From the NCBI GenBank assembly GCA_019912395.1, contig JAIOIH010000014.1, positions 80,800-144,799 on the forward strand: a stretch of 64,000 nt of DNA, given 5' to 3'. The notes under the pieces are model-generated. The model was not told the DNA's origin. It ran no database searches and saw only the letters and a program-made list of their open reading frames with translations. Below are positions 3,095-52,299 of this stretch, one piece after another. Each line of letters begins with the position of its first letter. The first letter of the stretch is position 1. Source of the stretch: Flavobacteriales bacterium. Lineage in GTDB: Bacteria; Bacteroidota; Bacteroidia; Flavobacteriales_F; PHOS-HE28. A program made the position numbers and the translations under genes.

Positions 3095-3118
3095 AATATA
3101 TGATTTAGATCATATATT
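3095..3118. promoter_or_regulatory. Crp/Fnr-like palindrome AATATATGATttagATCATATATT between divergent bcrC and mobA
   Basis: Perfect 10-bp arms, 4-nt spacer; on + strand CCTTG ends 29 nt after the ATCAT arm. Confidence 0.7.
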
Positions 3119-3230
3119 TGACCAAACATTTTATCAACCTTGGAATTTCGCCGACCGCATTGAACCCGCTCTTCCGACCAAGGCGGGATCCCGTGCGAAC
3201 AACTCTGAACGGAACGCTCCAAAAAGGCCC

Positions 3231-3893
3231 ATGTCAGCAGCACCAACAGGCAATTCGCACGCACGGTCGGTGATCCGCGCCCCGCTCCGCACCGGGAAAC
3301 CGGAGACCGGCTGCGTGGTGCTCAGTGCCGGTGCCTCCTCGCGCATGGGTCGGCACAAGGCCTTGCTACCGATGCCGGATGGTCGCTCTTTCCTGTCCCA
3401 GATCATATTCCAATACCGCCGCGCCGGTGTGCAATGCATCGCCGTGGTGCTGCACCCGGGCATTCCGTTGGAAAGCATTCCCATCGACCCAGTGGTCACC
3501 GTGGTGGTGAACCATGCCGCATCAGCAGGCCGCTTGGGATCGCTGCGCCTTGGGCTAGCTGCACTTCCCGGCGTGGACCATTGCTTCGTCCACAACATCG
3601 ACAATCCCTTCGTGGATCCCGCCACGATCGAGCACCTCCATGCCGTGCGCGACCGGGCCGCCAGCATCACGCCGTGCCATCAGGAACGCGGTGGGCACCC
3701 CATTCTGCTCGGGCCTGCCGCGATCGACCTCATTGCCGAGCGCACCGAAACCGACCTGCCCTTGCGCGACGTGCTCGCCCTGCTTCCACGGCATCGGGTG
3801 GAGGTGCAGGATGCCCGGATCCTGGCCAACGTCAACACGCCACAGGACCACGCCCATTGGTTCGGAACAGCCACCGCCGATGAACACGCCTGA
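3231..3893 (+). CDS. MobA-like NTP transferase (molybdenum cofactor cytidylyltransferase/MocA family)
   Basis: VVLSAGASSRMGRHKALLPMPDGRSFL; followed by XdhC-like gene; start chosen at ATG 3231 inside the longer ORF. Confidence 0.8.
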   Translation: MSAAPTGNSHARSVIRAPLRTGKPETGCVVLSAGASSRMGRHKALLPMPDGRSFLSQIIFQYRRAGVQCIAVVLHPGIPLESIPIDPVVTVVVNHAASAGRLGSLRLGLAALPGVDHCFVHNIDNPFVDPATIEHLHAVRDRAASITPCHQERGGHPILLGPAAIDLIAERTETDLPLRDVLALLPRHRVEVQDARILANVNTPQDHAHWFGTATADEHA

Positions 3894-3895
3894 CG

Positions 3896-4663
3896 ATGGA
3901 CCTGTACGACAAGCTGATCGAAGTGCGCAATGGCCCGGAGGAGGCGGCGCTCTGCTTGATCACGGGAACGCACGGCTCCACACCACGGCGCATCGGGGCA
4001 CGCATGCTGGTGCTCGCCTCGGGCACCATCCATGGCACCATCGGTGGTGGCGCCCTGGAACGCGAAGTGGTGCGCCATGCGCTGGAATGCATCCGCAAGG
4101 GCACCCCACAGATGCGCCGCCACGACCTGTTGCACCAGCATGGCATGTGCTGTGGCGGCAGTGTGGACATATACATTGAACCGGTGAAGAAGAAGAACAA
4201 GCTCTACATCTTCGGTGCCGGCCATACCGGTGCGGCATTGGCACGCCTGGCGCAAGCCGTGGACCTCGATGTCTACCTCGCAGACGACCGGCGCGAATAC
4301 CTCGACGCGGTGCAGGATGACGGCATCAACCTGCTGCCCGGCAGCCACACGGACCTCCTGCCCCTGCTCCCCTTCGACACGCGCTCCTATATCGCCATCC
4401 TGACCTACAGCCACCCCATGGACCGGGACATCCTGGCCTTCTGCCTGAAGAAGCCCTTCGCCTACCTGGGCATGATCGGCAGCCAGCGCAAGGTGGAACT
4501 GACCCGGAAGATGTTCCAGGAAGGCGGCATCGCCACGGCGGAAGAACTGGCGCGGGTGGACATGCCCATGGGGCTGGACATCGGTGCCGAAGGTCCGGAG
4601 GAGATCGCCGTGAGCATCCTGGCGAAGTTGATCACCGTGAAGAACAAGACCACCACCCCATGA
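3896..4663 (+). CDS. XdhC/CoxI family molybdoenzyme maturation protein
   Basis: GTHGSTPRRIGARMLV, GTIHGTIGGGALE, LYIFGAGHTGAALARLA. Confidence 0.85.
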   Translation: MDLYDKLIEVRNGPEEAALCLITGTHGSTPRRIGARMLVLASGTIHGTIGGGALEREVVRHALECIRKGTPQMRRHDLLHQHGMCCGGSVDIYIEPVKKKNKLYIFGAGHTGAALARLAQAVDLDVYLADDRREYLDAVQDDGINLLPGSHTDLLPLLPFDTRSYIAILTYSHPMDRDILAFCLKKPFAYLGMIGSQRKVELTRKMFQEGGIATAEELARVDMPMGLDIGAEGPEEIAVSILAKLITVKNKTTTP

Positions 4664-5400
4664 GCAACTCGCCCATCGCCATCGTCACGGGTGCCGCCAA
4701 AGGCATCGGCCGCGCCATCGCTGAACGGCTGGCGAACGACGGCTTCGATGTGCTGGCCGTGGACATGGAACCGGTTTCCGAGGACCTCCCGTCCGCTGCG
4801 CCGGGTGCCGGAAAGATCCTGTTCCACCGTGCGGATATCCGCGACGAGCAGGCGGTGCAGGCACTCTTCCGCACGGCCATGGAGCGCCACGGCCGCGTGG
4901 ATGCCGTGGTGAACAACGCGGGCATCATCCGCGACAACATGATCCACCGCATGACGCTGGAGGACTTCCAGGCGGTGATCGATGTGAACCTTAAAGGCAC
5001 CTGGCTGATGTGCCGCGAAGCCGCCCGCGTGATGAAGGAGCAGGGCAGTGGCGGCATCGTGAACATCGCCTCACGGGCCTGGTTGGGCAATCGCGGACAG
5101 AGCAACTATGCCGCGTCCAAAGCGGGAGTGGTCGCGCTCACCCGCGTACTTGCCTTGGAACTGGGCCGCCATGGGGTAAGCGTGAACACCGTGGCCCCGG
5201 GATTGATCGACACCCCGCTGACGCGCGGCCTGGAACCCCACGTCCTGCAAAGCCTGATCGATGCCCAGCCCACACGCACCATGGGAAAGCCCGAGGACGT
5301 GGCCCACGCCGTGGCCTTCCTGCTGAACAAGGACACCCGCTTCATCACGGGCCAGACCCTCTATGTGGACGGCGGCAAAAGCATCGGTGCAGGCATTTGA
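4660..5400 (+). CDS. SDR family oxidoreductase
   Basis: VTGAAKGIGRAIAERL; YAASKAGV; NNAG; overlaps xdhC stop by 4 nt. Confidence 0.85.
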   Translation: MSNSPIAIVTGAAKGIGRAIAERLANDGFDVLAVDMEPVSEDLPSAAPGAGKILFHRADIRDEQAVQALFRTAMERHGRVDAVVNNAGIIRDNMIHRMTLEDFQAVIDVNLKGTWLMCREAARVMKEQGSGGIVNIASRAWLGNRGQSNYAASKAGVVALTRVLALELGRHGVSVNTVAPGLIDTPLTRGLEPHVLQSLIDAQPTRTMGKPEDVAHAVAFLLNKDTRFITGQTLYVDGGKSIGAGI

Positions 5401-5420
5401 ACGGAAGCAACGATCAGATC

Positions 5421-5504
5421 ATGAACGACCACTTCTTCAACTACGGCACGGATACCATCAGCGCTCGCATGGATCGGATCGCTCGGATGAAGGTGAACGA
5501 CTAA
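5421..5504 (+). CDS. Possible 27-aa small protein MNDHFFNYGTDTISARMDRIARMKVND
   Basis: ATG..TAA read directly between SDR stop (5400) and hcr start (5516); no homology known to me. Confidence 0.3.
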   Translation: MNDHFFNYGTDTISARMDRIARMKVND

Positions 5505-5515
5505 GCTGTGAAACC

Positions 5516-8311
5516 ATGGCACGGATACAACTGACCATCAACGACCGGGAGCATGACCTGCTGATCGGTGCGCACGACATGCTGTCCACCGTGATCCGCG
5601 AAAATGCCGGACTGAAAGGCACCAAGGTGGGCTGCTCGCAGGGCAGCTGCGGTGCCTGTACCGTACTGGTGAACGACGAACCGGTGCTGGCCTGCATCAC
5701 GCCGGCCATGCGCTGCCACCAAGCGCGGATCACCACCATCGAGGGTCTTGCTTTGCAGGGCACGCCTCACCTGTTGCAGCAGAAATTCGTGGAGAAGGGC
5801 GCCATCCAATGCGGCTTCTGCACGCCGGGCATGGTGCTCACGGCCCTGCACCATGTGGAACAGGCCCATGACAATTCGGTGGAGGGCATCAAGGAGGCCC
5901 TCTCCGGCAACCTGTGCCGCTGCACCGGTTACAAGAAGATCATCGAGGCCGTGGCCGAATATGCGCAAGAGGTCGCGAGCGGCAATGCCGTGCCAACCGC
6001 CGAAGTGGCGGAGGGCATGGTGGGCACCGCACGCCCGTACCTCGAAGCGGCACGCAAGGCCCAGGGCACCGCCACCTATGCCGATGACCTGGCACCCGCC
6101 AACGCCTTGCACGTGCGCTTCCTGCGCAGCCCGCATCCGCACGCACGCATCCTGCGCATCGACAAGTCCGCCGCACTGGCACTGCCCGGCGTACGCTACG
6201 TGGCCACCGGTGAGGAACTGCCCACCCCGTTCGGCGTGCTCCCCATCTCCCAGGACGAGACCGCCATGGCCATCGGCAAGACGCGCTACATCGGCGAGAT
6301 CGTCGCGGCCGTGGCGGCGGATACCGAAGCCATCGCCAACAAGGCGTGCTCATTGGTCCAGGTGGATTACGAACCCATCCGGTCCTTCCTCACCATGGAC
6401 GACAGCCTTGCCGATACCGGGGAACACGAAAAGATCCACGCCCACACGCGCGGCACGAACAACGTCCACAAGAAGGCCGAACTGCGCTTCGGCGATCAGG
6501 CCAAGGGACTGGCCGAGGCCGAAGTGGTGAGCCGCATGGACTTCACCATGGAAGGCGTGAACCACGGCTTCACCGAACCGCATGCGGCCAGCGCTTACTG
6601 GGACGAGAACGGGCTTACGGTGACCACTGCCACGCAGGTCACCCACTACCTGCACCGTGCGCTGGCGAAGGTGCTGGAACTGCCCTTGCACCGGGTGCGC
6701 GTGATCAAGCCCACGGTGGGTGGCGGCTTCGGCGGCAAGAGCGATCCCTTCCCCCATGAGATGATCGTGGCACACCTGGCACGCCGTACCGGCAGGCCCA
6801 CGCGCACCTGCCTGAGCCGGGAGGAGGTCTTCCTCACCAACCACGGCAGGCACCCCTCGCGCATGACCATCCAATTGGGTGCCGACCGCGATGGCACCCT
6901 CAAGGTGCTCGATGCCGACATCGTGATCGACGGCGGGGCCTACGGCAGCTTCGGGGTGGTGACCAGCTACTACAATGGCGTGCTGTTGCAGGCACCCTAC
7001 AAGCTGGACAACTTCGGCTTCGTCACCCGCCGGGTGTACACCAACAAACCGCAGAGCGGCGCCATGCGCGGGCACGGTGCCGTGAACTCGCGTTTCGCCG
7101 TGGAATCACTGATCGACGACATCAGCCACCGGATCGGCATGGACCCCGTGGAAATGCGCATGAAGAATTTCCTCGATGCGAACACCCTTACGGTGGGGCA
7201 GTACCGCATCACCTCCAACGGCAGCCGCGAGTCGATCCAGACCGTGGCGCGGTCCTCCGGCTGGGGCGATCGGCGCGGGCATCTGCCGTACGGACGCGGG
7301 CTCGGCGTGGGCTGCGGCTTCTTCATCAGCGGCAGCGCACTGCCCATCATCCGCAACGACCTGCCGCAAAGCACCGTGCATCTCAAGGTCGATTTTGATG
7401 GTCGCGTGCTGATCACTTCCGGCGCCAACGACATCGGCCAGGGCAGCGACACCATGCTGGCGATCATCGTGGGCGAGGTGCTCGGCATCGATATGGAACG
7501 CCTCTTCGTGCTGGGTGCCGATACACTGCTCACCCCCGTGGACCTGGGCAGCTACTCCAGCCGCGTCACCTTCATGGCAGGCAATGCGGCCAAGGATGCC
7601 GCCGAACAGCTCCGCGCCGCCATCGCCGATGCGGTCGCCGCACGCCATGATGTACCGCAGGCGGAATTGGTTTTCGCCGGTGCCCGCGTCCACAGCAACG
7701 ACCGCCGCGTGGACCTCTCATGGGAGGAGGCCATCGAAGCGTTGACCGCCGGCCGTGGTGCCGTGAGCGTGAGCGGCAAGTACATCTCCCCCAAGCTGGG
7801 CGGCGACTTCAAGGGGGCCGGTGCAGGGCTCAGTCCCTCCTACTCCTTCGGTGCATGCGTGGCCGAAGTGGAGGTGGATCCAAGGACCGGACATGTGAAA
7901 GTGATGGACGTATGGGGTGCGCATGATTGCGGCAAGGCCCTGAACCCCATGGCCGTGGAAGGCCAGCTCGAAGGTTCGTGGCACATGGGCATCGGGCAGG
8001 CGCTCAGCGAGGAAATGCGCTACCACGAAGGTCTGCTGGTCAACAACAACTTTCTGGACTACCGCATCCCCACCACGCTGGACACGCCCACGATACACAC
8101 CCACATCATCGAAACGATGGATCCCGAGGGACCCTTCGGTGCCAAGGAATGCGGTGAGGGCGCGCTGCACCCGGTGATCCCCGCCATCGCCAACGCCATC
8201 TACGATGCCGTGGGGGTACGCGTGACCAAGCTGCCCATCCATGCCGAGCATGTGCTCGCACTGATCAAGGCCAAGGCCGCGCAAAACGAACCGATCCCGC
8301 AGATGCCATGA
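5516..8311 (+). CDS. 4-hydroxybenzoyl-CoA reductase, fused gamma (2x[2Fe-2S]) and alpha (molybdopterin) subunits
   Basis: N-term CSQGSCGACTVLV...CGFCTPGM...LCRCTGY; C-term Mo-binding xanthine-oxidase-family region (GGGFGGKSDPFPHEM, GAMRGHGAVNSRFAVESLIDDIS, GAKECGEGALHPVIPAIANAI). Confidence 0.8.
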   Translation: MARIQLTINDREHDLLIGAHDMLSTVIRENAGLKGTKVGCSQGSCGACTVLVNDEPVLACITPAMRCHQARITTIEGLALQGTPHLLQQKFVEKGAIQCGFCTPGMVLTALHHVEQAHDNSVEGIKEALSGNLCRCTGYKKIIEAVAEYAQEVASGNAVPTAEVAEGMVGTARPYLEAARKAQGTATYADDLAPANALHVRFLRSPHPHARILRIDKSAALALPGVRYVATGEELPTPFGVLPISQDETAMAIGKTRYIGEIVAAVAADTEAIANKACSLVQVDYEPIRSFLTMDDSLADTGEHEKIHAHTRGTNNVHKKAELRFGDQAKGLAEAEVVSRMDFTMEGVNHGFTEPHAASAYWDENGLTVTTATQVTHYLHRALAKVLELPLHRVRVIKPTVGGGFGGKSDPFPHEMIVAHLARRTGRPTRTCLSREEVFLTNHGRHPSRMTIQLGADRDGTLKVLDADIVIDGGAYGSFGVVTSYYNGVLLQAPYKLDNFGFVTRRVYTNKPQSGAMRGHGAVNSRFAVESLIDDISHRIGMDPVEMRMKNFLDANTLTVGQYRITSNGSRESIQTVARSSGWGDRRGHLPYGRGLGVGCGFFISGSALPIIRNDLPQSTVHLKVDFDGRVLITSGANDIGQGSDTMLAIIVGEVLGIDMERLFVLGADTLLTPVDLGSYSSRVTFMAGNAAKDAAEQLRAAIADAVAARHDVPQAELVFAGARVHSNDRRVDLSWEEAIEALTAGRGAVSVSGKYISPKLGGDFKGAGAGLSPSYSFGACVAEVEVDPRTGHVKVMDVWGAHDCGKALNPMAVEGQLEGSWHMGIGQALSEEMRYHEGLLVNNNFLDYRIPTTLDTPTIHTHIIETMDPEGPFGAKECGEGALHPVIPAIANAIYDAVGVRVTKLPIHAEHVLALIKAKAAQNEPIPQMP

Positions 8312-9258: not shown

Positions 9259-9271
9259 TAAAAACACCACC

Positions 9272-9929: not shown

Positions 9930-9943
9930 ATGATCTATGTCAT
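9930..9943 (+). promoter_or_regulatory. Crp/Fnr-like site ATGATctatGTCAT upstream of narK-like gene
   Basis: Palindrome; TAACCTTG with G 29 nt downstream. Confidence 0.6.
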
Positions 9944-10394
9944 ATTTTCATTCCTGCCAATCCCTAACCTTGCGTTATGGAAAGTGGCTTCCTTCATCCC
10001 TCGAGATACGGCCATCCGTTGATCGGGATGCATGCGCCACATACGTGCAGGCCGCGCCGATCCCACAAGTGGATCCCGCTCTGTACACGGGCTGAAACCT
10101 GCTGCGGAGCAGAACGACCCCACTGCCAGGCATGACCCATCTCCTCCATCCGATCACCGTGGCCAAGGAGAGGATCGCAAGCGTGCTCTCCGTCCGTTTC
10201 ACCGTGATCACCGGCATTCCTCTCCAGAGCCGAATGTGGAGCCCGACTTGTGCAGCAACAACACGGCGGCCAACACCGGGGCCGGTGCCGATCTGGGCAT
10301 GGTCCCTTATCGCATCACACCCCCGGGCCGGCGAGGTTCATGCATTCAATGTCACCACCATGCGCACCGAACAACTCCCCAACCGCTTCACCCC

Positions 10395-16341: not shown

Positions 16342-16355
16342 ATGATATAAATCAT
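16342..16355 (+). promoter_or_regulatory. Crp/Fnr-like site ATGATataaATCAT upstream of TonB receptor
   Basis: Perfect palindrome; TTCTTTG with G 30 nt downstream. Confidence 0.65.
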
Positions 16356-16422
16356 ATCTCACCTGCTCGCGCTGTTCATTCTTTGCGATATGCTCCGTTG
16401 AACATATCGCATCCACCACCAC

Positions 16423-21279: not shown

Positions 21280-23163
21280 TCACACCCATTGATCCGACGG
21301 ACGGATCGATCGGATGGACCGGACCTGCTCCACCAGCACCGGCTCCGGCAGCAACATGGCCTTCACTTCGGCGGCATGGCGTTCCAAGTCCTTCCTGAAC
21401 CGTTGCAGTTGCGTCACTGCCTGCTGGTGCAGCACCGGTGCGAGTTCCTCGTAGTAGCGGATCCCGTTGAGCATGTTGGTCTTGAACGTCTCGATGTAGC
21501 GGCGCTGCTTGTCCGTGACATCGTGCTTCATCTGCTCGAACTCGCGTTTGAGGTAATCCACGTAAAGCCTCATCTCGTTGATGAACATGTGGGCGCGATC
21601 GTTCTCGTTCAGCAGGGAGATACGTCCGTAGATGTGGTCCACCATCGTCTTCAGCGGCACGATCTTCGAGAAGTAGGCCAAGTTGGGGCCAGGGCAGATC
21701 GCCACGGCCTCCAGCTTATGGGCCGGCGTCATGTTTCCCTTCAGTAGCACACTGGCACCAAGTCCCTCACAGAGGCAGTCCTTCTCCGTGATGCGTGCGG
21801 CCTGCACAGCATAGGTCAACGGATCGAGGTTCTCCTCCTCGAGCTGCTTCAACTTCAGGTTCTGGTATTGGCGTGAAGCCGTGCAGATGGGGATCTCGGT
21901 GAACTCCGTATTGGTGCTCAGGAATTTCTTGTAGCAAGCACTGCCGGGCCTGTTCTTGGCGATGCGGGCCTTGCGCTGTGCCTCGGAGGTGCTGGGGCGG
22001 AAATTGTGGAATGGGATCCCCAGGGGCGAGGCCCAGCTCATGTAGTAGTCCTCCTTTTTCGCCTTGGTGATCTGCTGTAGCGTCTTCTCGTCCACGTTGG
22101 TGGCTTCGGGTACCAGCAGGAACGGACTACCCCATCCGGTACCGTCCACTCCGTAGTGCTCCCGCAGGAAGCGATCCTCCACGGTGGTACCGATGCCCCC
22201 TTGCACCGCCACGCGGAAAGTGGCGTTGGAAGGCAGCGGATGATGGCCACCCTCTTTCAGGGTCCTGCTGCACAGCGCGAACAGCTCCTCCAACACCTCC
22301 GTGCGCCTCTCCTTGAACTCCTGCAGGATCGGCCCCATCAATACGCCATCGGTAGCGAAGGCATGGCCACCGCAGTTCAAGCCGGATTCAATGCGGAACT
22401 CCGAGACCCAGATGCCCTTCTTGGCGAGGATCTTCCCTTGGATCGTGGCCGAGCGCAGATCGCTCACCTTCAGGACCACTTTCTTGCGGATCACACCCTC
22501 GGCATCGGGGAAGAAATCCGGGAACGTGGCGATATAGCTGTAGATGCGCGGGTTATAGCCTGCACTGATGACGATGGAGGAATCCAACGCGCTCGACGCG
22601 AAGCCGCGGAAGGCCGCCATGCCCTCGGCATATTCCACCGGTAGGGGCGTACCGTCCTTGGCATGCACTGTCCGGTCGATCTTGGCCATGATGTTCACGT
22701 CGATGGCACCTGACCGGACCGAGGCCCGCAGCTCCTGCTGTGCCTGCTGACGCTCATCCCCTTCGGGCATGGCCTTCATCGCCAGGAACTTTTTATGCAG
22801 CGGGTGCTGATCGGCGAGCAGCAGGAAATACTTTTCTATGTCCGAACCTTCCGTGAAGGGCTCGGCGCGCAGGGTTTCCGTGTTCCGTTTCACGATGCGC
22901 TGCACCAGGTCGAGGTAGGCGGTGATGCGCTGTGCCCGATGGTCGATCTCCTTCAGGGGGATCTCGGTATAGGGTTCACCGGCGTTCCTACTGTGGAATT
23001 CGCGCATGCGCTCCACCAGCTCGTCCTCGATGATGGAGATCACGGAGGAGATGCCGAAATGGGCCACTTTTACCGGTGTATCGATGGTGTACCCAAGGCC
23101 CATCACGGGGATATGGAAGGTATGCGGTGAGCTTTCGGGCATAAAGGCGGGGGTCAGTTTCAT
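21280..23163 (-). CDS. Uncharacterised 627-aa protein, possibly TIM-barrel-like
   Basis: Long single ORF; IPVMGLGYTIDTPVKVAHFGISSVISIIEDELVERMRE, SGLNCGGHAFATDGVLMGPIL, GTGWGSPFLLVPEATNVDE; function not recognised. Confidence 0.75.
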   Translation of the reverse strand: MKLTPAFMPESSPHTFHIPVMGLGYTIDTPVKVAHFGISSVISIIEDELVERMREFHSRNAGEPYTEIPLKEIDHRAQRITAYLDLVQRIVKRNTETLRAEPFTEGSDIEKYFLLLADQHPLHKKFLAMKAMPEGDERQQAQQELRASVRSGAIDVNIMAKIDRTVHAKDGTPLPVEYAEGMAAFRGFASSALDSSIVISAGYNPRIYSYIATFPDFFPDAEGVIRKKVVLKVSDLRSATIQGKILAKKGIWVSEFRIESGLNCGGHAFATDGVLMGPILQEFKERRTEVLEELFALCSRTLKEGGHHPLPSNATFRVAVQGGIGTTVEDRFLREHYGVDGTGWGSPFLLVPEATNVDEKTLQQITKAKKEDYYMSWASPLGIPFHNFRPSTSEAQRKARIAKNRPGSACYKKFLSTNTEFTEIPICTASRQYQNLKLKQLEEENLDPLTYAVQAARITEKDCLCEGLGASVLLKGNMTPAHKLEAVAICPGPNLAYFSKIVPLKTMVDHIYGRISLLNENDRAHMFINEMRLYVDYLKREFEQMKHDVTDKQRRYIETFKTNMLNGIRYYEELAPVLHQQAVTQLQRFRKDLERHAAEVKAMLLPEPVLVEQVRSIRSIRPSDQWV

Positions 23164-23237
23164 TTGGCGAAGACCAGCCGGTAGGACGGCACCACACTTC
23201 GCGTTGTCAAAGTTGTCGATCCAGGGTGGTTCTTGCG

Positions 23238-23251
23238 GTGACGTTCATCAG
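23238..23251 (-). promoter_or_regulatory. Crp/Fnr-like site GTGACgttcATCAG upstream of 627-aa protein
   Basis: Core TGACnnnnATCA; on - strand CAACTTTG with G 30 nt downstream. Confidence 0.5.
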
Positions 23252-27795: not shown

Positions 27796-27836
27796 AAGCT
27801 TCACTGACAAAAGTACCGGTTCCAGGAGCTCGTTTC

Positions 27837-27850
27837 CTGACGCAGGTCAT
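27837..27850 (-). promoter_or_regulatory. Crp/Fnr-like site CTGACgcagGTCAT upstream of norC
   Basis: TACTTTTG (fits TAnnTTTG) with G 29 nt downstream on - strand. Confidence 0.75.
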
Positions 27851-38247: not shown

Positions 38248-38272
38248 GATATCATCCTTTGATCGGGCCAAA

Positions 38273-38288
38273 GTTAGTGATTACTAAC
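38273..38288. promoter_or_regulatory. Operator-like palindrome GTTAGTgattACTAAC overlapping a -7 box
   Basis: Perfect 6-bp arms; overlaps TAACTTTG of the promoter for the 38247 gene. Confidence 0.5.
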
Positions 38289-38298
38289 TAACCTTGGA

Positions 38299-38314
38299 TG
38301 TGACTTTTGTCACA
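38299..38314 (-). promoter_or_regulatory. Crp/Fnr-like site TGTGACttttGTCACA upstream of 38247 gene
   Basis: Perfect 6-bp arms; TAACTTTG with G 31 nt downstream on - strand. Confidence 0.65.
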
Positions 38315-39342: not shown

Positions 39343-39381
39343 AGCGCCCCCCAAAGTTGCTCACCGGGTCACCGGGAATAG

Positions 39382-39395
39382 CTGACCCTTATCAG
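39382..39395 (-). promoter_or_regulatory. Crp/Fnr-like site CTGACccttATCAG
   Basis: CAACTTTG with G 30 nt downstream on - strand. Confidence 0.6.
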
Positions 39396-39888: not shown

Positions 39889-39964
39889 TGCCCTTGTGCT
39901 TTGTTTCGTCGGCGGTGCGTCCGCCTTTTCGGCTGCAAGGTGAAGAGTTCTTTCACCTTGGGCA

Positions 39965-39978
39965 GTGAGAATTATCAC
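39965..39978 (-). promoter_or_regulatory. Degenerate Crp/Fnr-like site GTGAGaattATCAC upstream of OsmC gene
   Basis: TTCACCTTG with G 29 nt downstream on - strand; one mismatch to core. Confidence 0.4.
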
Positions 39979-41906: not shown

Positions 41907-44480
41907 CTACCCGCACTTGGAGCTTCCGCAGCTCCTGCACTTCAGGCAACCCTCCTCGTAGAATACGCCTTCGCTGTCGCCGCAGTCGTTGCACTTGCGA
42001 CCGCTGGCACTGGTGCCGTCCGCGATGTAGCGCGAGAGCGCACGCGCAATGCCGTTCTTCCACGTATTCAGCGTTTCATCGTAGAGGTTCAGGTTCACCA
42101 CGGTGTCCACCACGTGCGGCACGGAAACGCCTTGGCGCAGCATGCCGCTGATCAGGATCGCGTAGTTCCAGTACTCCTTGTCGAAGCTGCGGCTGAGCCC
42201 CTGGATGGTCACGCGATAATCATCGCTGTCGGCGTACTCGAGGTCGTAGATGTTCTTGCCGCTCTTCTTGTCCTTGCGTTTGTTCACCCAACCCTTTTCC
42301 ACCCACTTCGGCAGTTGGAACACGCCTTTGGCCTTGCCGGTGAAGATCTCGTAGGGCTTGCCGTCCAGTAGACCCACCACGGCGATCCAAGGCTCCAGCT
42401 CGTTGTTGAAGCGGATCACGTCGGCTTCCAGAACATCCGGGCGCTTGTTGTGCGAAACAGCGGTATCCTCCTTCTTGTTGCTGGATACGAGCACGCCGCT
42501 GCGCGATCCATCGCGATAGACGGTAACGCCCTTGAGGCCCATCTTCCAGGCTTCGCGATAGATGTTGCCCACCAGTTCGGCGGAAACGTCCGAGGGCAGG
42601 TTGATGGTGCTGCTGATGCTGTGCGTGGTGTACTTCTGTACTGCGGCTTGCAGGCGCACGCGGTGGTGCCAGTCGATATCGTTCGCCGTGCAGTTGGAGT
42701 AAGGACTTTCCTTCACGTCGGTCCTGCCCGTGGCATGCATCCAATCCACAAGGCGCGGGTGGTGAACGATGAATTCCTCCCACTGGTCACCCATGGCATC
42801 GGTGAAGGCGACGGCCTCCTTCGGTGCGTTCGGGCCAAGCTTGCGGCGACGCGTGTAGCCGAGCATGTAAACCGGCTCAATGCCGCTGCTGGTACGGGTG
42901 AGCAGGCTGAGGGTGCCCGTTGGCGCAACCGTGCTGATGCTGATGTTGCGACGACCGTTCTTCATCATGCGGGCGTGCAGCTCGGGCAGTTCGGTGGCCA
43001 GCATGTTGGTGAACTCGGAAGTGCGTTCCACGGCGGGATCGAAGCCGACAAAACTGCCGCGCTCGATCGCCATGTCGATGCTGCTGTTGAACTCGGCCTC
43101 GCACTTGGTGCGCATGATGTGCTCGGCGGCTTCCACCGCAGCCTTGCTATCGTAGGCCAGGTTCAGTGCGGCAAGCGCATCGGCCATACCGGTGAAGCCC
43201 AACCCGGTGCGACGGCCCTTGCGCCCCGTCTCGCCGAGCAACTGCCACGTCTCGCGCTCCACACGCTTTACGGCATCCGGCTCGGGGTCGTTGTCGATCT
43301 TCACCAGGATCCGTTCCACGGCCTCCAGTTCGAGGTCCACCAGATCGTCCATCAGGCGCTGCGCTTCGTATGTCACCTTGGCCAAACGGGCATGGTCGAA
43401 ACGGGCTTTCGGCGTGAAGGGATCGGTGACGAAGGAGAAGAAATTGATGGCGATCAAGCGGCAGCTGTCCCCGCCCTGCATGGCGATCTCGCCGCACGGA
43501 TTGGTGCTTTCGTTCTTGAAGCCGGGATAGATGCTCGAAGTGGAATACTTGTGCTGGCGATCCCAGAAGATGATGCCGGGTTCCGCGCTGTTGTGCGCGC
43601 ACTTGATCAGCGTGTTCCACAGCTCGCGGGCGCGAACGGTCTTGGTCACCGAAGGCGTTTTACTGTCGATGGGCCATTGGTGGGTGTATTCCGCATCGTC
43701 CTCAACGGCCTGCAGGAAGGCATCGCCCACGCGCACGCTCACGTTCGCACCGGTCACCTTGGTGAGGTCCTGCTTCATGGTGATGAACTCCTCCACATCG
43801 GGGTGGGCGATGTCCATGGTCAACATCAGGGCACCTCTCCTACCCTTCTGTGCCACTTCGCGCGTGGTGTTGCTGAAGCGCTCCATGAATGAAACGGCCC
43901 CGGTGCTGGTGCGTGCGGCATTGCTCACGGGTGCGCCGGCGGGGCGAAGGGTGCTGAGGTCGAAGCCCACGCCGCAGCGGCGCTTGAAGAGCTGTGCCAG
44001 TTGCTGGTCGTTGCGGAAGATGCCGCCGTAGCTGTCCACCGGTGCGGGGATCACCACGCAATTGCTGAGCGAGGCCAAGCGTGTGGCGTCACCCAACGAG
44101 GCCATCACACTGCCCTGCGGAACGATGTCGCGGAACCCGTCGAAAAGGTCGAAAATGCGCTTCTCGTCCAAGGGTTTGCGCTTTTTTCCATAAGCGGAAA
44201 GCAGGGCCTGTTTCTCCGCCGGGACCGGCTTGTACGAGCGCTCGATGCGCGCGAACTCCCCGGCCATGCGGAGATGCGTATCGGCGGGGGTCAGTTCGAT
44301 CAATTCACCCTTGGCATTGCGCAGGGCATATTTGTTCATCCATGTGGTGGCGGCGAGCTCATCATCCTGAAAATAGTCCAGCGCCGCAGCCAAGACCTCT
44401 TCCTGTGAATAGCTGTTGTCGGCTGCAACGACGGAGGTTCGCATGGCGATGGCTTCTTCAAAAAGTATGGCTTGTGGCAT
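41907..44480 (-). CDS. nrdJ: Adenosylcobalamin-dependent (class II) ribonucleotide reductase
   Basis: GLGFTGMADALAALNLAYDSKAAVEAAE; NPCGEIAMQGGDSCRLIAIN; C-terminal CNDCG...CLKCRSCGSSKCG. Confidence 0.88.
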   Translation of the reverse strand: MPQAILFEEAIAMRTSVVAADNSYSQEEVLAAALDYFQDDELAATTWMNKYALRNAKGELIELTPADTHLRMAGEFARIERSYKPVPAEKQALLSAYGKKRKPLDEKRIFDLFDGFRDIVPQGSVMASLGDATRLASLSNCVVIPAPVDSYGGIFRNDQQLAQLFKRRCGVGFDLSTLRPAGAPVSNAARTSTGAVSFMERFSNTTREVAQKGRRGALMLTMDIAHPDVEEFITMKQDLTKVTGANVSVRVGDAFLQAVEDDAEYTHQWPIDSKTPSVTKTVRARELWNTLIKCAHNSAEPGIIFWDRQHKYSTSSIYPGFKNESTNPCGEIAMQGGDSCRLIAINFFSFVTDPFTPKARFDHARLAKVTYEAQRLMDDLVDLELEAVERILVKIDNDPEPDAVKRVERETWQLLGETGRKGRRTGLGFTGMADALAALNLAYDSKAAVEAAEHIMRTKCEAEFNSSIDMAIERGSFVGFDPAVERTSEFTNMLATELPELHARMMKNGRRNISISTVAPTGTLSLLTRTSSGIEPVYMLGYTRRRKLGPNAPKEAVAFTDAMGDQWEEFIVHHPRLVDWMHATGRTDVKESPYSNCTANDIDWHHRVRLQAAVQKYTTHSISSTINLPSDVSAELVGNIYREAWKMGLKGVTVYRDGSRSGVLVSSNKKEDTAVSHNKRPDVLEADVIRFNNELEPWIAVVGLLDGKPYEIFTGKAKGVFQLPKWVEKGWVNKRKDKKSGKNIYDLEYADSDDYRVTIQGLSRSFDKEYWNYAILISGMLRQGVSVPHVVDTVVNLNLYDETLNTWKNGIARALSRYIADGTSASGRKCNDCGDSEGVFYEEGCLKCRSCGSSKCG

Positions 44481-45473: not shown

Positions 45474-45561
45474 GGTGGAGGAGTTTAATGGTGAGGGTGT
45501 TTGTATGGTCAAAGATGGACGAACAGCTTTTACAATAAGCTGACGGAACGCAGTTGAAGGA

Positions 45562-45575
45562 ATGACCCTTGTCAG
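45562..45575 (-). promoter_or_regulatory. Crp/Fnr-like site ATGACccttGTCAG upstream of fasciclin gene
   Basis: Perfect core TGACccttGTCA; TTATTG with G 29 nt downstream on - strand. Confidence 0.5.
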
Positions 45576-45700: not shown

Positions 45701-46468
45701 TCAAAGATCCTTCCTTCCGAAAGCGCGGAAAGCGAACAGGGAGGGTATCGCTACCCATGCCATGAGGGCCGCCAGTGAGACCAGGATACCGCGGACATTC
45801 CCGAAGAACTTCTCGTACACCGCACCGCTATAGCCCATCATGGCGGCAAGGTCCACTTTCAACAGCACCATGATGCGGCCGAGGTCGATCGGGTCCAAGG
45901 CGGCCAAAGGCACGATCCAGGGTTCAATGGGATAATCGCTGAAGGCGAACATCACCCACAGCAGCACCGCATCATATACCAGTACGAAGAGAAACCAGAC
46001 CACCAGGCCCAATCCCACGCCACGCGCCTTTTCCCTGTTCTTGATCGCGATCAGTGAACCGATGGCCACGAACACCAGCGTAAGCATTACGCAGGCCAGT
46101 ATCAGCGTAAAGGACGCCCCGTTCGGCAGGAATGCCACCAACGGGATCCCAGCGCCCAGCAATGCACCCAGCACCAGGGCGGTGCCCAGCGCCAGCATCT
46201 GTCCGCTCAGGATCTTCGATCGCCGCAAGGGCTGAACCGCCAACAGCTCGGTGAATTCCATGGCATCGTACAGGTATACGATGGTGAAGACCGATGAAAC
46301 GAGCGGCACCAAGGCCAACAGCACTTGGGACAAGCTCAACATGGCCTTCACGGGTTGATCCTCCAGCTGGAACAAGCCCAAGCTGATCGCCAGCAACAAC
46401 AGCATCCAACCCGCCACGAACTTGTTCCGCGCCAGGTCTATCAGGGTGTACTTATATACTTTCCACAT
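45701..46468 (-). CDS. nosY: NosY-like ABC transporter permease
   Basis: 6-TM permease, adjacent to NosF and NosD. Confidence 0.82.
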   Translation of the reverse strand: MWKVYKYTLIDLARNKFVAGWMLLLLAISLGLFQLEDQPVKAMLSLSQVLLALVPLVSSVFTIVYLYDAMEFTELLAVQPLRRSKILSGQMLALGTALVLGALLGAGIPLVAFLPNGASFTLILACVMLTLVFVAIGSLIAIKNREKARGVGLGLVVWFLFVLVYDAVLLWVMFAFSDYPIEPWIVPLAALDPIDLGRIMVLLKVDLAAMMGYSGAVYEKFFGNVRGILVSLAALMAWVAIPSLFAFRAFGRKDL

Positions 46469-47189
46469 GCGCTTCGGTGTTGCTGATGAGCATGGCGGGG
46501 ATGGCCTTCGAGAGCCGGTTCTGACCGGTGGCCGCCAGCAGGTCCTCCGGTGGAAGCAGAAAGCGCAACGTGCCGTCCTGCAGGTAGGCCACGCGATCGG
46601 CCAAGGCCTCCACTTCCTCCATGAGGTGGCTGGTAATGAGCACGGTGCAACCCGTGCGCTTGATCTCCCGCACGGCCTTGAGCACGATCCCGGAGCTCAA
46701 CGGGTCCAGGCCCGCCGTGGGCTCGTCCAGTACCAGTACGCTGGGGGAATAACGGAAGGCCAACACCGCGCTCACTTTCTGGCGCTGCCCTCCGGAGAGC
46801 GTGCCCAAGCGTTTCTCCATCATGGCATCCACCCCCAGGTCGCGGACCAAAGGACCTTCAGCACGGCCCTTTTTACTGCCGCGGATGTCATCCATGAGAT
46901 CGATGAGCTGCCCGATCTTCAGTTCGTTGGGGAAGCGCGAGATCTGTGGCATGTGCCCCACATGATGCCGGTACTTCGGGTCCGGCCCCACGGGTTCGCC
47001 ATTCACCGTGATGGTCCCGGTGGTGGCATGCACCAAGCCCAGCAGGCATTTGATCATGGTGGTCTTTCCCGAGCCGTTGGGTCCGATCACCGAAACGGTC
47101 TCGCCGGGTTCGAAGCGTGCACTGAACTCACGCAGCGCCCACATCCTACCGTACTTCTTGCCGACGTTCTCAAAGGTTACGCGTGCCAT
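46452..47189 (-). CDS. nosF: NosF-like ABC transporter ATPase
   Basis: VIGPNGSGKTTMIKCLLGL, LSGGQRQKVSAVLAF, VLDEPTAGLDP. Confidence 0.88.
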   Translation of the reverse strand: MARVTFENVGKKYGRMWALREFSARFEPGETVSVIGPNGSGKTTMIKCLLGLVHATTGTITVNGEPVGPDPKYRHHVGHMPQISRFPNELKIGQLIDLMDDIRGSKKGRAEGPLVRDLGVDAMMEKRLGTLSGGQRQKVSAVLAFRYSPSVLVLDEPTAGLDPLSSGIVLKAVREIKRTGCTVLITSHLMEEVEALADRVAYLQDGTLRFLLPPEDLLAATGQNRLSKAIPAMLISNTEAHVESI

Positions 47190-48438
47190 GCGGTGATCTC
47201 ATCAAGGGTTTATCATCTTCAAGGCCCGGGGGTGTCATCGACGGTACCAGTCGCTCGGCCCGGTCCAGTAATTGGGTAAGCAGGCTTCGCGACAACACCA
47301 CCGCATAGGGCATGCGCTCGTTCACCATCGCGAAGAGGCTTACCGGTCGGAAGGGAACGTCTCCCGTGCCGTCGTGCTCCAGGTCGTAGCCCTGATAGCG
47401 GTCCCAGTAGTTGCCGCTAAAGCTGTTGTATACCGGGTTACCATTGGTGCTCATGTCGAAGGTGTTGCCAATGAAGCTGTTTCCCGTGAACCTGCCATCG
47501 GTGGCATTGGCGAACAGGCGCAGCGCCCAGCCATTGGCCTGGAAGATGTTCCCGTTCACCTCGGCCCGGTTGCAGCCGTCCACCAGCATGCCCGTGGTGT
47601 TGTTGATGAACTGGTTGCTGTCGATCACCACATCATTGATCTCCTTCAACAGCAGCCCGTAGGAACTGGCACCCCGGTTGCTGATGAACCGATTGCGGCG
47701 CATCTCCACCTCCTTGCTGTACATCACGGCCACGCCCGCTCCGTTCTCCGTGAAGAGATTGTCCGAGTAGGTATCGCGGTGGCTGAACATGAAATGCAGG
47801 CCATAGCGCGAGTTCCGCATGCTTTTGTTGCGGCGTACATGACTGTCCGTGACGAACTCGAAGTAGATGCCGTCGCGGTGGTCCTGCGATACGTTGTCCA
47901 CGACCTCCGCCCCGGAACAGCGCCACAGGTGAATGCCGTTGGCTTGGCGGGTCTCGATCTCATCGGGGTCGCCCAGCACGGAATTTCCGGCGACGACCGT
48001 GTTGCGCGAGTTGGAGACGTGAATGGCAAAGAAGCAATGCTCCAGGACATTGTCCAGGATCTTCACATTGTCGCTCTTCTTTACCTTGATACCGGCATTG
48101 TCGTCGATGTTGCTGAGCAGGGTGCCGCGTACCACGAAGCCCTGAACGGTCACGTCCGGCGCGGTGATCACCAGCACATCGCCTTGCCTTCCCCCATCGA
48201 TCACCGGCCTCCCGATGCCGATCAATGTGAGGGGCCGATCGATGGTAAGGGTCCCCTCGGAATAGGTGCCCTGCAATACCCGGATGGTGTCATGGGGCTC
48301 CGCGGACGCCAAGGCCACGGCCAGTTTTTTGTGGACCCCGTCGGGGCCTACCGTCCAGGTTCTTGCCACCAGCGGACCCGTAGCCCACAGCACCAGAAGC
48401 AGTGCGGCCACGCGGTGCCCTGCGCGGTTGCCCGTCAT
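47170..48438 (-). CDS. nosD: Nitrous oxide reductase maturation protein NosD
   Basis: Right-handed parallel beta-helix repeats; SFSGNYWDRYQGYDLEHDGTGDVPFRPVSLF. Confidence 0.9.
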   Translation of the reverse strand: MTGNRAGHRVAALLLVLWATGPLVARTWTVGPDGVHKKLAVALASAEPHDTIRVLQGTYSEGTLTIDRPLTLIGIGRPVIDGGRQGDVLVITAPDVTVQGFVVRGTLLSNIDDNAGIKVKKSDNVKILDNVLEHCFFAIHVSNSRNTVVAGNSVLGDPDEIETRQANGIHLWRCSGAEVVDNVSQDHRDGIYFEFVTDSHVRRNKSMRNSRYGLHFMFSHRDTYSDNLFTENGAGVAVMYSKEVEMRRNRFISNRGASSYGLLLKEINDVVIDSNQFINNTTGMLVDGCNRAEVNGNIFQANGWALRLFANATDGRFTGNSFIGNTFDMSTNGNPVYNSFSGNYWDRYQGYDLEHDGTGDVPFRPVSLFAMVNERMPYAVVLSRSLLTQLLDRAERLVPSMTPPGLEDDKPLMRSPHGTRNL

Positions 48439-48878
48439 TCGTCGGTGAATAGCTTCTTCACCGCAGGCCAGTCCAACTCTTCGCCCGGGAAGTGTTCCTC
48501 AGCGACCTTGCGGTCGGCGGCGGAAGAGAATGCGGCCACATTGCCGCGCATGGGGCTCTTCAGCGTGGGAGCGTGCAAATAGAATGCGGTTTTGGCATCG
48601 ATGAGCGTTCCGGGATGTGCAAAGTCCGAGACATACCAGCCCTTCACTTCCTCCTCCACCAAGCGGCCTTCATGGCTCACGAAGGGTACCATGCACTCGG
48701 GTGCATCGAAAACGTAGCTGCGCCCTTTCACCGTTTGGAGGGCAGCACCGAACTTGGCGTCCATCACGTTCATGCGGCAATGGGCACATTCGTCGGAGCC
48801 GTACTTGATCTCCGGCTGGCCCACGGAGCAACTGGAGGCCAGCATGAGCATACCAGCGGAGATGATGAGGTTTTTCAT
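48435..48878 (-). CDS. nosL: NosL-like copper-binding lipoprotein
   Basis: Lipobox LASSCS; YGSDECAHCRMNVMDAKFGAALQT. Confidence 0.88.
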   Translation of the reverse strand: MKNLIISAGMLMLASSCSVGQPEIKYGSDECAHCRMNVMDAKFGAALQTVKGRSYVFDAPECMVPFVSHEGRLVEEEVKGWYVSDFAHPGTLIDAKTAFYLHAPTLKSPMRGNVAAFSSAADRKVAEEHFPGEELDWPAVKKLFTDE

Positions 48879-48879
48879 G

Positions 48880-49464
48880 TCAACTTTTTGGGATGGACAC
48901 AGTGCGGGGTTTCAGCCACTCGCGCAGAAAGACAAACACCGCCATGGATATGGAGACGAAGAGCACATAGCCCCCCACGTCCGGGTAGGACCAGGCCTCA
49001 AAGTTAAGCAGTGTCTTGTGCCCGAACAGGGGCGGCTGGTAGGCCATGCCCTCGATCTTGATCGCCGCGTGCGGATCCAGGTTATGGCCGTAGTTCCAGC
49101 CCCACGAGTACATGTCCCACATGGCCCAGAGCACGAATGCAAAAAGTGCGAAGAGCCAGCTTCCCAAGGCCCAGCGCCTCCCGATCAACGCCGCCAGAAG
49201 GCCCCAACCGATCAACATGCCGAACACATAGCGCATGATCTTGAACTCGGGGAACATCTCGTTATGAATGGTGGCCATGCCGATGTAGTGGTTCAGCCCG
49301 TTGATCTGGTCCACATTGCCAGAGAACCGGTTGTGGTGGATCTGCAACAACAGGCCCTCGGGGTACTGCGGGGCCAGCAGGTCGATGCGCCAAATGGGCT
49401 GCACCAGATTGATGCTCAACGCAAGAGCGGCGATGGCGATGAGGATGCGGGAGATCGGGCGCAT
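48880..49464 (-). CDS. nos-cluster membrane protein of unknown function
   Basis: TM segments; PIWRIDLLAPQYPEGLLLQIHHNRFSGNVDQINGLNHYIGM; between nosL and nosZ. Confidence 0.75.
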   Translation of the reverse strand: MRPISRILIAIAALALSINLVQPIWRIDLLAPQYPEGLLLQIHHNRFSGNVDQINGLNHYIGMATIHNEMFPEFKIMRYVFGMLIGWGLLAALIGRRWALGSWLFALFAFVLWAMWDMYSWGWNYGHNLDPHAAIKIEGMAYQPPLFGHKTLLNFEAWSYPDVGGYVLFVSISMAVFVFLREWLKPRTVSIPKS

Positions 49465-49650
49465 GGGAGAAGGTCGTTGGGTTTTGCCGATATGGGGGAA
49501 GGAAGAATGCCAGGAGAACCGATGGGCATGGCAGGCTGGCCGGTGCCCTGTCCCAATATGGTCCGCTACGGAACGGGAAGGGCCTTGCGGAGTTGACTAG
49601 TAGTGACCAGCCACCGGTGGCCAGGGATGCACAATGCCCTCGAAAGGAAG

Positions 49651-49692
49651 CGCCCGGCCCTTTGCACCCTGATGGATGCTTGGGGCCGGGCG
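49651..49692. terminator. Hairpin with perfect 10-bp arms downstream of nosZ
   Basis: CGCCCGGCCC ... GGGCCGGGCG. Confidence 0.6.
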
Positions 49693-49716
49693 TTCTTCGT
49701 TCATTCTCGCTTGAGG

Positions 49717-51705
49717 TCAAAGACCGGCGTCGGCGGCTTTGGTGTTCGCGCTAAGCGGTACGTTGCTGCCCGCCGGAGAGACGCGGATGTAGCCCTGCAT
49801 CTCCTGGTGGAGGGCCGAGCAGAAGTCCGTGCAGTAGAAGGGCTTCACACCTACGCTGGTGGGGGTCCACTTCAGGGTCTGCGTTTCGCCGGGCATGATC
49901 AGCAGTTCGGCCGTTTGGGCACCTTTTATCGCGAAGCCATGCGGTACGTCCCAGTCCTGCTCCAGGTTGGTCACATGGAAGTACACGTCGTCGCCGACCT
50001 TCACGCCTTCGATGTTGTCGGGGGCGAAGTGCGAGCGGATGCAGGTCATGTACACGTGGACGTTCTTGCCATCGCGCACCACCCGGGCCTCTTTCTCGCC
50101 CATGGTCACATAGGGGTGCTTGTTGTCCTCGATCTTGAAGAACTTCACCGACTTATCCTTGATCAGGTCGGCCGGCAGGCTCTGAGCGTAGTGTGGTTCA
50201 CCGATGGACGGGTAGTCCGACAGCAATTCCATCTTGGGTCCATCGATGCTGAAAAGCTGTGCGGATTGTGCAAGCTCGGGGCCGGTGGGCAGGTAGCGGT
50301 CCTTGGTGATCTTGTTGTAGGCGATCACATACTTGCCCCATGGCTTGCGGCTATCCCCACCGGGGATGCTCAAGTGGCCAATGGAGTAGTAGGTGGGCAC
50401 GCGGTCCACCACTTCCAGGGTCTTCACGTTCCACTTCACGATCTCGCTGCTCACGAACATCGAACTGTACGCGAAGCCGTTGTTGTCAAACTCCGTGTGC
50501 AAGGGTCCCAGTCCGGGACGCTTCACCTCGCCATGCAATACGCTCTCGTAATTCAGTACGGGGATGCCGTCGAACTCGCCTTCGTAGTCCTTGCCATCGA
50601 TCGCCTTGATCATCTTCTCGAAGGAGAACACGGGAATCAGCGCGGCCAGTTTGCCGCTGCCCACGATGAACTCGCCGGTGGGATCCACGTCGCAACCGTG
50701 CGGGCTCTTCGGGCAGGGCATGAAGTAGAGCAGGTCGGTGAGTTCCTTGGGGTCCAACTGCAGCACTTGCTCCACCACTTCGCTGGTGGCCATGTGGGTC
50801 TCATCGCTGTAGTGGTTCATGTAGTGCCTGCCCGGCACCATCTTGCCCTTGCCTTCCTTGACGTATTGCTCGGCCTTCTTCCAGTTCACGGCCATGATGA
50901 AGTCCTTGTCGTTCTGGCTGGCGTTCACCTCCAGCAGTTCATGCGCCTGTTCGGTGTTGTAGGTGCTGAAGAAGAACCATCCATCGCTTGGCCCCTTGCC
51001 GGCATGGCTCAGGTCGAAGTGGATGCCCGGGGTGAGGATCTGGAAGGCGATGGACATCTTTCCGGTTTCCTTGTCCGGATGGACGAAGGACACCGTGCCC
51101 TTGAAATTCTTCTTGTAGGTATCGATCGGTACGTCGCGCTCCGCATCGGTGCCCAAGGGGAGGCTGAAGCGTGTTCCGGCCACTACATACTCGCTGTTCG
51201 GGGTAATGAACGGTGAGCTGTGGTTGCCCGCACTGTTGGGGATCTCGATGATGGTCTTCGTGCGGAAGGTCGTGAGATCGATCAAGGCGATGCGCGGGGT
51301 ATTGTTGCCGTTGATGAACATCCAGCGGCCATCGGGCACGCCATCGGTCATGGAAGGCTCCACGTGGTGGGAGTCGTCCCAGGGAATGAACCCGTGGGTG
51401 GACATCAGCATGGGCTTGGTCTCTTCGCTGTAGCCCCAGCCGCTCTCGGGGTTCACCGAGAACACGGGGATGTTCCGCAGCATCCGGCCGGAGGGAATGC
51501 CGTACACGGACATCTGCCCATTGAAGCCACCGCTTACGAAGTTGTAGAACTCATCGTACTGTCCGGGCGGCACGAAGACCTTCGAGGCTGCGTTGCCGGT
51601 GACGGCACTTTTGGTATTGGCCGGCTTGCAGCCTTGGGCCAGTGGAACGGCGATACCGGCGGCGAGGAGCAGCGGGAACGCGGTGGTTAGCGGGGTCCTT
51701 CTCAT
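49717..51705 (-). CDS. nosZ: Nitrous oxide reductase, Sec-dependent (clade II) type
   Basis: No Tat RR motif, lipobox-like PLAQGC; CPKSPHGCDVDPTGEF; CuA site YCTDFCSALHQEMQGYI. Confidence 0.95.
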   Translation of the reverse strand: MRRTPLTTAFPLLLAAGIAVPLAQGCKPANTKSAVTGNAASKVFVPPGQYDEFYNFVSGGFNGQMSVYGIPSGRMLRNIPVFSVNPESGWGYSEETKPMLMSTHGFIPWDDSHHVEPSMTDGVPDGRWMFINGNNTPRIALIDLTTFRTKTIIEIPNSAGNHSSPFITPNSEYVVAGTRFSLPLGTDAERDVPIDTYKKNFKGTVSFVHPDKETGKMSIAFQILTPGIHFDLSHAGKGPSDGWFFFSTYNTEQAHELLEVNASQNDKDFIMAVNWKKAEQYVKEGKGKMVPGRHYMNHYSDETHMATSEVVEQVLQLDPKELTDLLYFMPCPKSPHGCDVDPTGEFIVGSGKLAALIPVFSFEKMIKAIDGKDYEGEFDGIPVLNYESVLHGEVKRPGLGPLHTEFDNNGFAYSSMFVSSEIVKWNVKTLEVVDRVPTYYSIGHLSIPGGDSRKPWGKYVIAYNKITKDRYLPTGPELAQSAQLFSIDGPKMELLSDYPSIGEPHYAQSLPADLIKDKSVKFFKIEDNKHPYVTMGEKEARVVRDGKNVHVYMTCIRSHFAPDNIEGVKVGDDVYFHVTNLEQDWDVPHGFAIKGAQTAELLIMPGETQTLKWTPTSVGVKPFYCTDFCSALHQEMQGYIRVSPAGSNVPLSANTKAADAGL

Positions 51706-51761
51706 TTAGAATGGTTGGTTGTTCAGTCGTTCGTGGCTTTTGTTGGGCTGGGGGAATGGCT

Positions 51762-52235
51762 TCAAAGGGAGCGGATGAATTCCAGCACGTTGCGTGCGTC
51801 ATCCACGGACAGGTTCTGGTTGGGCATCCGGACCAAGCACTCCTCCAACATGGCTTGTGCTTCAGGGTCGGTCTCCAACATGGCATCGGTATGAACGATC
51901 ATGTTCATGATCCATTCCGGCTTGCGCTGATCGAGCAAGTTCTTCCAGCCCGGGCCTACCACACGGTTGGTGCCAGTGCTGTGGCAGGCTTGGCATTTCA
52001 CGTCGTAGAGCTCCTTGCCCTTGGCCACCATGCCCGGGTCGATCTCGCCCAACTTCACCTGGTCGGCGGTGATCAGATCGGTGGGCGGTGCGGCCGGTGC
52101 TCCCCCCGGAGCCGGTGTTGAAGCGCCTTCGGTGGAAGTGTCACCACCCCCACAAGCCATGGCAAGGGCGAGTATTGTGACCAGACCGAAGCCTTTAAGC
52201 ATGCTCAGAGGGTGGGTGCTGTTACGGGTTGACAT
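51762..52235 (-). CDS. c-type cytochrome lipoprotein upstream of nosZ
   Basis: Lipobox LAMACGGG; CQACHSTG; C-term MPNQNLS. Confidence 0.85.
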   Translation of the reverse strand: MSTRNSTHPLSMLKGFGLVTILALAMACGGGDTSTEGASTPAPGGAPAAPPTDLITADQVKLGEIDPGMVAKGKELYDVKCQACHSTGTNRVVGPGWKNLLDQRKPEWIMNMIVHTDAMLETDPEAQAMLEECLVRMPNQNLSVDDARNVLEFIRSL

Positions 52236-52285
52236 GAATTGGAATGTTTTCGGGTTCAAAAGTCGTTTCCGCGGCGAAGATAGGT

Positions 52286-52299
52286 CTGATCCTTGTCAG
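52286..52299 (-). promoter_or_regulatory. Crp/Fnr-like site CTGATccttGTCAG upstream of cytochrome c-nosZ
   Basis: TTTTG with G 29 nt downstream on - strand. Confidence 0.65.

Follow-up and report, generated by a model that had tools for sequence, protein, structure and literature searches.

A 64,000-nt stretch of a Flavobacteriales genome (GCA_019912395.1) carries ten Crp/Fnr-type palindromes at a nearly fixed distance from Bacteroidota promoter elements. We consider it likely that these boxes are the activator sites of a single anaerobic-respiration regulon governed by the Crp superfamily, with a receiver–Crp fusion protein (REC-CRP) as the most likely main reader and a second Crp protein as an accessory. 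The case is built from sequence: the box, its geometry, its conservation, the gene content, and the clustering of boxes around REC-CRP genes. The stretch, hereafter the window, spans bases 80800–144799 of the 303-kb contig C68; the genome measures 4.13 Mb and is 99% complete. Positions refer to the window unless prefixed with C68, which denotes the contig.

All ten palindromes named in the original prediction are present. Nine match TGAYNNNNRTCA exactly; the tenth, at 39966, reads TGATAATTCTCA, and its reported core mismatch arises because it has the CTCA form of the box, TGAYnnnnCTCA, a recurrent variant. The gap from the TCA arm to the NTTG of the promoter element is 26 nt at 3101, 9931, 27838, 39966, 45563, and 52287; 27 nt at 16343, 23239, and 39383; and 28 nt at 38301. 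These gaps equal the spacings of 29, 30, and 31 nt proposed originally. In Flavobacterium psychrophilum, the Bacteroidota −7 box, TAnnTTTG, maps to −12 to −5 (PMC9723704). With the −7 box placed as in Flavobacterium, the palindrome centres would fall at −40.5, −41.5, or −42.5, which is the class II activator position.

The composite of palindrome and promoter element far exceeded its expected frequency. Exact palindromes numbered 14 in the window (4.6 expected; none of 100 shuffles had as many), nine of them being the sites above and the other five lying within called genes. A palindrome followed after 26–28 nt by YTTG occurred eight times (0.20 expected), and six times with TTTG (0.09 expected); neither count was reached in any of 300 shuffles. 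Across TTG-ending elements at this distance, we counted eight to 11 occurrences against 0.2–0.4 expected from the same number of shuffles. On the whole 303-kb contig, TTG stood 27–29 nt downstream from 11 of 14 intergenic palindromes; at the palindromes C68:35013 and C68:38082, TTTG was not found at the right distance (the latter has TACATTTC, by eye). Among 35 genomes of the genus, CAAA-N26–28-palindrome had 520 matches versus 84 for a control with the gap moved to 32–34, and the former was higher in every genome. A reversed-pattern control gave lower counts still and was dropped as a biased yardstick; it was too lenient because gaps of 24, 25, and 29 gave seven matches in the genome itself versus two for the reversed pattern (gaps 24–29).

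A Fisher test of intergenic against coding placement was only weakly significant (p 0.03); one cause is that the gene caller treated true promoters as coding sequence. Over-long open reading frame calls (OsmC, fasciclin) contain several boxes, and their likely starts lie downstream from the promoter. The sites were picked by eye, and intergenic DNA may be richer in both palindromes and TTTG, so that chance or composition might have produced the pattern. We find this scarcely credible in view of the shuffles, the gap-shifted control in 35 genomes, and, as described below, a single-base spacing peak and conservation with turnover. The class II geometry on Bacteroidota −7 promoters, as first proposed, withstood both the shuffles in the window and the gap-shifted control in the genus.

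The boxes, their promoter elements, and the genes that they face are listed here by position.

3101–3112, + strand: box TGATTTAGATCA; −7-like CAACCTTG at 3135–3142; faces MobA-like, XdhC, SDR, and molybdopterin hydroxylase genes
9931–9942, + strand: box TGATCTATGTCA; −7-like TAACCTTG at 9965–9972; faces MFS (narK-like) and SLAC1 genes
16343–16354, + strand: box TGATATAAATCA; −7-like ATTCTTTG at 16378–16385; faces TonB receptor, molybdopterin oxidoreductase, hemerythrin, and MoaA-like genes
23239–23250, − strand: box TGATGAACGTCA; −7 CAACTTTG at 23208–23215; faces a 627-aa orphan; kept in genome G004
27838–27849, − strand: box TGACCTGCGTCA; −7 TACTTTTG at 27808–27815; faces a norC-like cytochrome c and a norB-like COX1-family gene
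38301–38312, − strand: box TGACAAAAGTCA; −7 TAACTTTG at 38269–38276; faces a 139-aa small membrane-type protein; kept in genome G010
39383–39394, − strand: box TGATAAGGGTCA; −7 CAACTTTG at 39352–39359; faces a 135-aa protein; kept in G004
39966–39977, − strand: box TGATAATTCTCA (CTCA variant); −7-like TCACCTTG at 39936–39943; faces OsmC (likely start ∼39888)
45541–45552, − strand: proximal half-conserved box TGCGTTCCGTCA, 22 bp below the next
45563–45574, − strand: distal tandem box TGACAAGGGTCA; −7-like CATCTTTG at 45510–45517 (gap 49); faces a fasciclin-domain gene
49717–51705, − strand: clade II (Sec-dependent) nosZ (TIGR04246)
52287–52298, − strand: proximal box TGACAAGGATCA; −7 GACTTTTG at 52257–52264; faces cytochrome c–nosZ
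52309–52320, − strand: distal box TGATCAAACTCA, 22 bp above the nosZ box

The original gene assignment changes at 3101: The site faces the MobA-like to molybdopterin-hydroxylase genes, and the HGD-D (bcr-like) genes are on the opposite strand.

The boxes recur in relatives of this bacterium. Upstream of cytochrome c–nosZ, the palindrome, the 26–28-nt gap, and TTTG were found at 24 of 30 loci, including one from another family of the class; in these conserved composites the inner bases, outer base, and spacer vary. Composites also precede norC in G010 and, in either G004 or G010, the 627-aa orphan, OsmC, and the two small proteins. In relatives, further composites stand before an orthologue of the cytochrome c encoded upstream of narG and before genes for a class II ribonucleotide reductase, a cation-transport ATPase, a tryptophanase-like enzyme, and an ScdA/RIC-type repair protein. 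By its predicted functions, the gene set looks like one for anaerobic respiration, including that of nitrate, nitric oxide, and nitrous oxide. This gene content favors the anaerobic nitrogen-oxide part of the anaerobic/nitric oxide regulon first suggested; the nitric oxide part is conjectural, as the best candidate regulator looks phospho-controlled, unlike a nitric oxide-binding DNR or HcpR.

Two genes of the window deserve mention beside this set. An adenosylcobalamin-dependent class II ribonucleotide reductase, NrdJ (TIGR02504), is encoded at 41907–44480 on the − strand; no clear composite was seen before it in the window, whereas its G010 orthologue carries one. The 627-aa orphan (21280–23163, − strand) has conserved cysteines and no Pfam or NCBIfam match, and its AlphaFold model is weak (pLDDT 61). 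Homologues of ∼50% identity are encoded beside the histidine kinase and REC-CRP genes in Pedobacter, where a box is found too. The best structural matches of the model (malate synthase, PfaD, and the DfnA enoyl reductase) were unconvincing, and its weak resemblance to PfaD-type barrels was not significant.

The spacing of boxes across the phylum revealed a second arrangement. In 80 REC-CRP neighbourhoods across Bacteroidota, which are not independent because they are partly homologous promoters with shared homologous genes (many from Mucilaginibacter and Pedobacter), TTTG after palindromes peaked at gap 27 (69 cases) and gap 49–50 (92 cases), with ∼4 at other gaps. In 76 of the 92 cases at gap 49–50, one or both arms of a second box lay exactly 22 bp below the first, and other offsets were far fewer. 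Read this way, some promoters carry two boxes two helical turns apart, centred near −63.5 and −41.5. The distal box at nosZ reads TGATnnnnCTCA throughout the eight close loci, and 18 of 24 loci have one or both of its arms. At 45563 the order is the other one, with the exact box above, a half-site 22 bp below, and a −7-like element at gap 49. The −7 described as weak at this site (GCTTATTG) is probably not the promoter, and the second −7-like element, CATCTTTG, fits the phylum-wide tandem. The tandem arrangement is new here, at nosZ, at 45563, and at many promoters near the regulator gene.

Other repeats lie close to some of these promoters. In one subclade, the spacer between Crp box and −7 box of nosZ promoters holds an inverted repeat, GGAYn6RTCC, starting 21–22 nt before TTTG (loci L061, L064, L066, L068, L071, L073, L074, L076, and L078). 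Similar repeats were noted by eye in the norC and ScdA promoters of G010 and the ScdA promoter of G024; the window's own nosZ promoter lacks one. The repeat is a possible repressor site on nitrogen-oxide genes. Long inverted repeats, also seen by eye, overlap the −7 box at 38269–38312 and 39936–39977 on the − strand (CCAAGGTTAGT...ACTAACTTTGG and CAAGGTGAA...TTCACCTTG, respectively) and could possibly serve as an extra operator.

As predicted originally, no Crp/Fnr regulator is encoded in the window: The genome has four cNMP-domain proteins, three of them with a clear Crp helix, and all four lie outside, two on the same contig. One is REC-CRP (C68:9570–10631), ∼70 kb before the window, which joins a receiver domain to a Crp sensor fold and a winged helix; a histidine kinase (PAS-HisKA-HATPase) is encoded directly upstream (C68:8365–9573). 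PF00027 and PF13545 scored above cut-off in both REC-CRP and the second Crp, placing them in the Crp/Fnr superfamily, and PDB matches to Crp chains span residues 148–349 of REC-CRP. With receiver residues E8, D9, D52, and K104 invariant and a histidine kinase adjoining, REC-CRP has the features expected of a two-component response regulator, presumably phosphorylated by the PAS kinase. No conserved cysteine was found in its Crp half, and the FNR 4Fe–4S set is absent. Equivalents of the cAMP contacts Arg82/Ser83 are likewise missing from its GDFIGxLG segment (by eye, against E. coli CRP). Its recognition helix, TATESLIR, is identical in 29 genomes of the genus and, like the TTYESVIR helix of the second Crp, retains the Glu and Arg with which FNR and CRP read TGA. 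Two ideas were discarded. Loss of the FNR Ser212 equivalent does not explain the free outer base of the box, as some REC-CRP proteins (Pedobacter, Mucilaginibacter) have Ser at this position and their boxes still rarely carry an outer T, and FixL-type haem binding by the kinase PAS domain was unsupported by eye.

REC-CRP occurs in nearly all genomes of the genus, and its closest named records come from uncultured "Bacteroidetes" or "Flavobacteriales" metagenome-assembled genomes. A composite stands before the REC-CRP operon in G000, G004, and G024 and directly before the REC-CRP start codon in Saprospiraceae. Across the phylum, boxes cluster near the gene, including at homologues of the 627-aa orphan divergent from the kinase in Pedobacter; other box-bearing neighbours we take, from their N-termini by eye, to be D-lactate-dehydrogenase-like and universal stress proteins. 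Among 198 Bacteroidia genomes, strict composites averaged 7.2 where REC-CRP is present and 3.2 where it is absent, not corrected for the tree, and the trend held in 19 of 23 informative families. REC-CRP is probably the main reader of the boxes. We rank it first because it is in nearly all genomes of the genus, while some genomes with nosZ and its box have no near relative of the second Crp, and because composites precede its own operon and boxes crowd its neighbourhood. The gene before the kinase and REC-CRP (C68:7690–8349, L014; likely start downstream from the called one) is cysteine-dioxygenase-like (PF05995), an oxygen-using enzyme within an anaerobic control operon.

Several observations weigh against this ranking. 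Genome G036 lacks REC-CRP and still has a nosZ box, and G005 has a nosZ box and no REC-CRP match in an assembly that is 91% complete and fragmented. The correlation with composite counts ignores the tree, REC-CRP loci share homologous genes, and the same box may be read by other Crp proteins of the class. The second Crp (C68:20342–21034), encoded after MbnP-family and cytochrome c peroxidase-like genes, is a serious candidate, perhaps as a second-tier regulator: It lies within the regulon itself (composite at C68:18459, kept in G010), and its relatives are divergent from or beside cytochrome c–nosZ in G018, G024, and G042 and near norC in G007. It has two cysteines in total and no FNR 4Fe–4S set, and it may sense nitric oxide in the manner of DNR. 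As a DNR-like one-component sensor whose helix has Glu and Arg at the base-reading positions, it could be the main regulator of the denitrification boxes, leaving REC-CRP a separate stress or fermentation regulon with the same box. We think this unlikely, given that near-complete genomes (G008 at 99%, G013, and G033) have nosZ and its box but no near relative of this protein and that composites occur in G015 and G020, whose sole Crp of this kind is REC-CRP. The third protein with a Crp helix has a CRP-like REVVTR helix.

A factor of another kind, or a repressor at the same position, would make the class II geometry incidental. In its favor, GGAYn6RTCC overlaps the spacer in some nosZ promoters; however, the single-base spacing peak to the −7 box across the phylum and the same-face 22-bp tandem are as for polymerase contact, making this alternative highly improbable. 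For activation by REC-CRP, we infer the binding protein, its phospho-control, activation as opposed to repression, and a low-oxygen or redox signal. A Crp-type dimer would bind VTGAYnnnnRTCAT centred near −41.5 and contact RNA polymerase carrying the Bacteroidota housekeeping sigma factor at the TAnnTTTG −7 box, resulting in class II activation. Some promoters would hold a second box two helical turns off, near −63.5. The PAS kinase would presumably phosphorylate the receiver of REC-CRP, which probably activates its own operon too, and the second Crp, whose recognition helix is similar, is probably an accessory or downstream regulator that reads the same boxes.

Elsewhere on the contig, genes at C68:38433–43095 (Cas3-, Cas5-, and Csd1-like) resemble by eye the start of a type I-C CRISPR locus, with an intergenic TGACCCTTGTCA palindrome between these genes and a minus-strand gene.

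Beyond the original prediction, the analysis adds a regulator candidate, the tandem boxes, and the phylum-wide extent. A literature search, which did not cover subscription journals, returned no paper on this regulon and no description of a receiver–Crp fusion like REC-CRP. The evidence seems to us evenly balanced on a wider proposal, that REC-CRP and its PAS kinase form a widespread phosphorylation-gated master regulator of oxygen limitation in Bacteroidota, filling the role of FNR or FixLJ–FixK elsewhere through single and 22-bp tandem boxes on −7 promoters of the phylum, and that in denitrifiers it has captured clade II nitrous oxide reductase. Clade II nitrous oxide reducers are an important biological sink of this gas, and their nosZ genes have seldom been studied in detail (PMC11539149). 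If the regulon is as proposed, the receiver–Crp fusion gains a DNA motif and a set of target genes. With a box of fixed geometry and a candidate regulator that occurs in cultivated genera (Pedobacter, Mucilaginibacter, Flavobacterium, and Winogradskyella), anaerobic control in the phylum becomes directly testable.

Judged by these features, the system appears to act like a class II Crp/FNR activator and is neither FNR, cAMP-CRP, nor HcpR2. It shares with FNR, DNR, and NnrR of Proteobacteria the superfamily, the TGAYnnnnRTCA core, an apparent class II position, and nar, nor, and nos targets. The FNR-type box is TTGATnnnnATCAA (PMC1274295), whereas here the outer T of TTGAY is disfavoured (4% of nosZ and 12% of phylum sites), the promoters are of the Bacteroidota −7 type with 22-bp tandems, a receiver domain is present, and neither REC-CRP nor the second Crp shows the FNR cysteines. 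HcpR2 of Bacteroides and relatives is likewise a Crp-family regulator of nitrogen-oxide genes in Bacteroidota hosts, but it targets mainly hcp, its box is GTAACnnnnGTTAC, and it lacks Glu at position 181 (PMC1274295), which is retained here; the HcpR2-type box was not seen. E. coli-type CRP at class II and tandem promoters resembles the system in fold, in a predicted centre near −41.5, and in a possible second dimer upstream; in contrast, the boxes here have no TGTGA requirement, REC-CRP does not keep the cAMP contacts (by eye), and a phospho-receiver would replace ligand control. Among solved structures, the Porphyromonas gingivalis Crp/Fnr protein (PDB 2GAU) is nearest in sequence to both the second Crp and the Crp half of REC-CRP, but its chain has no receiver domain and no Glu at the reading position. 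A further apparent analogy is with FixLJ–FixK of Alphaproteobacteria, in which a PAS kinase also leads to a FixK/Crp-type regulator of anaerobic respiration; the FixL haem histidine did not align by eye, and here receiver and Crp are united in one protein.

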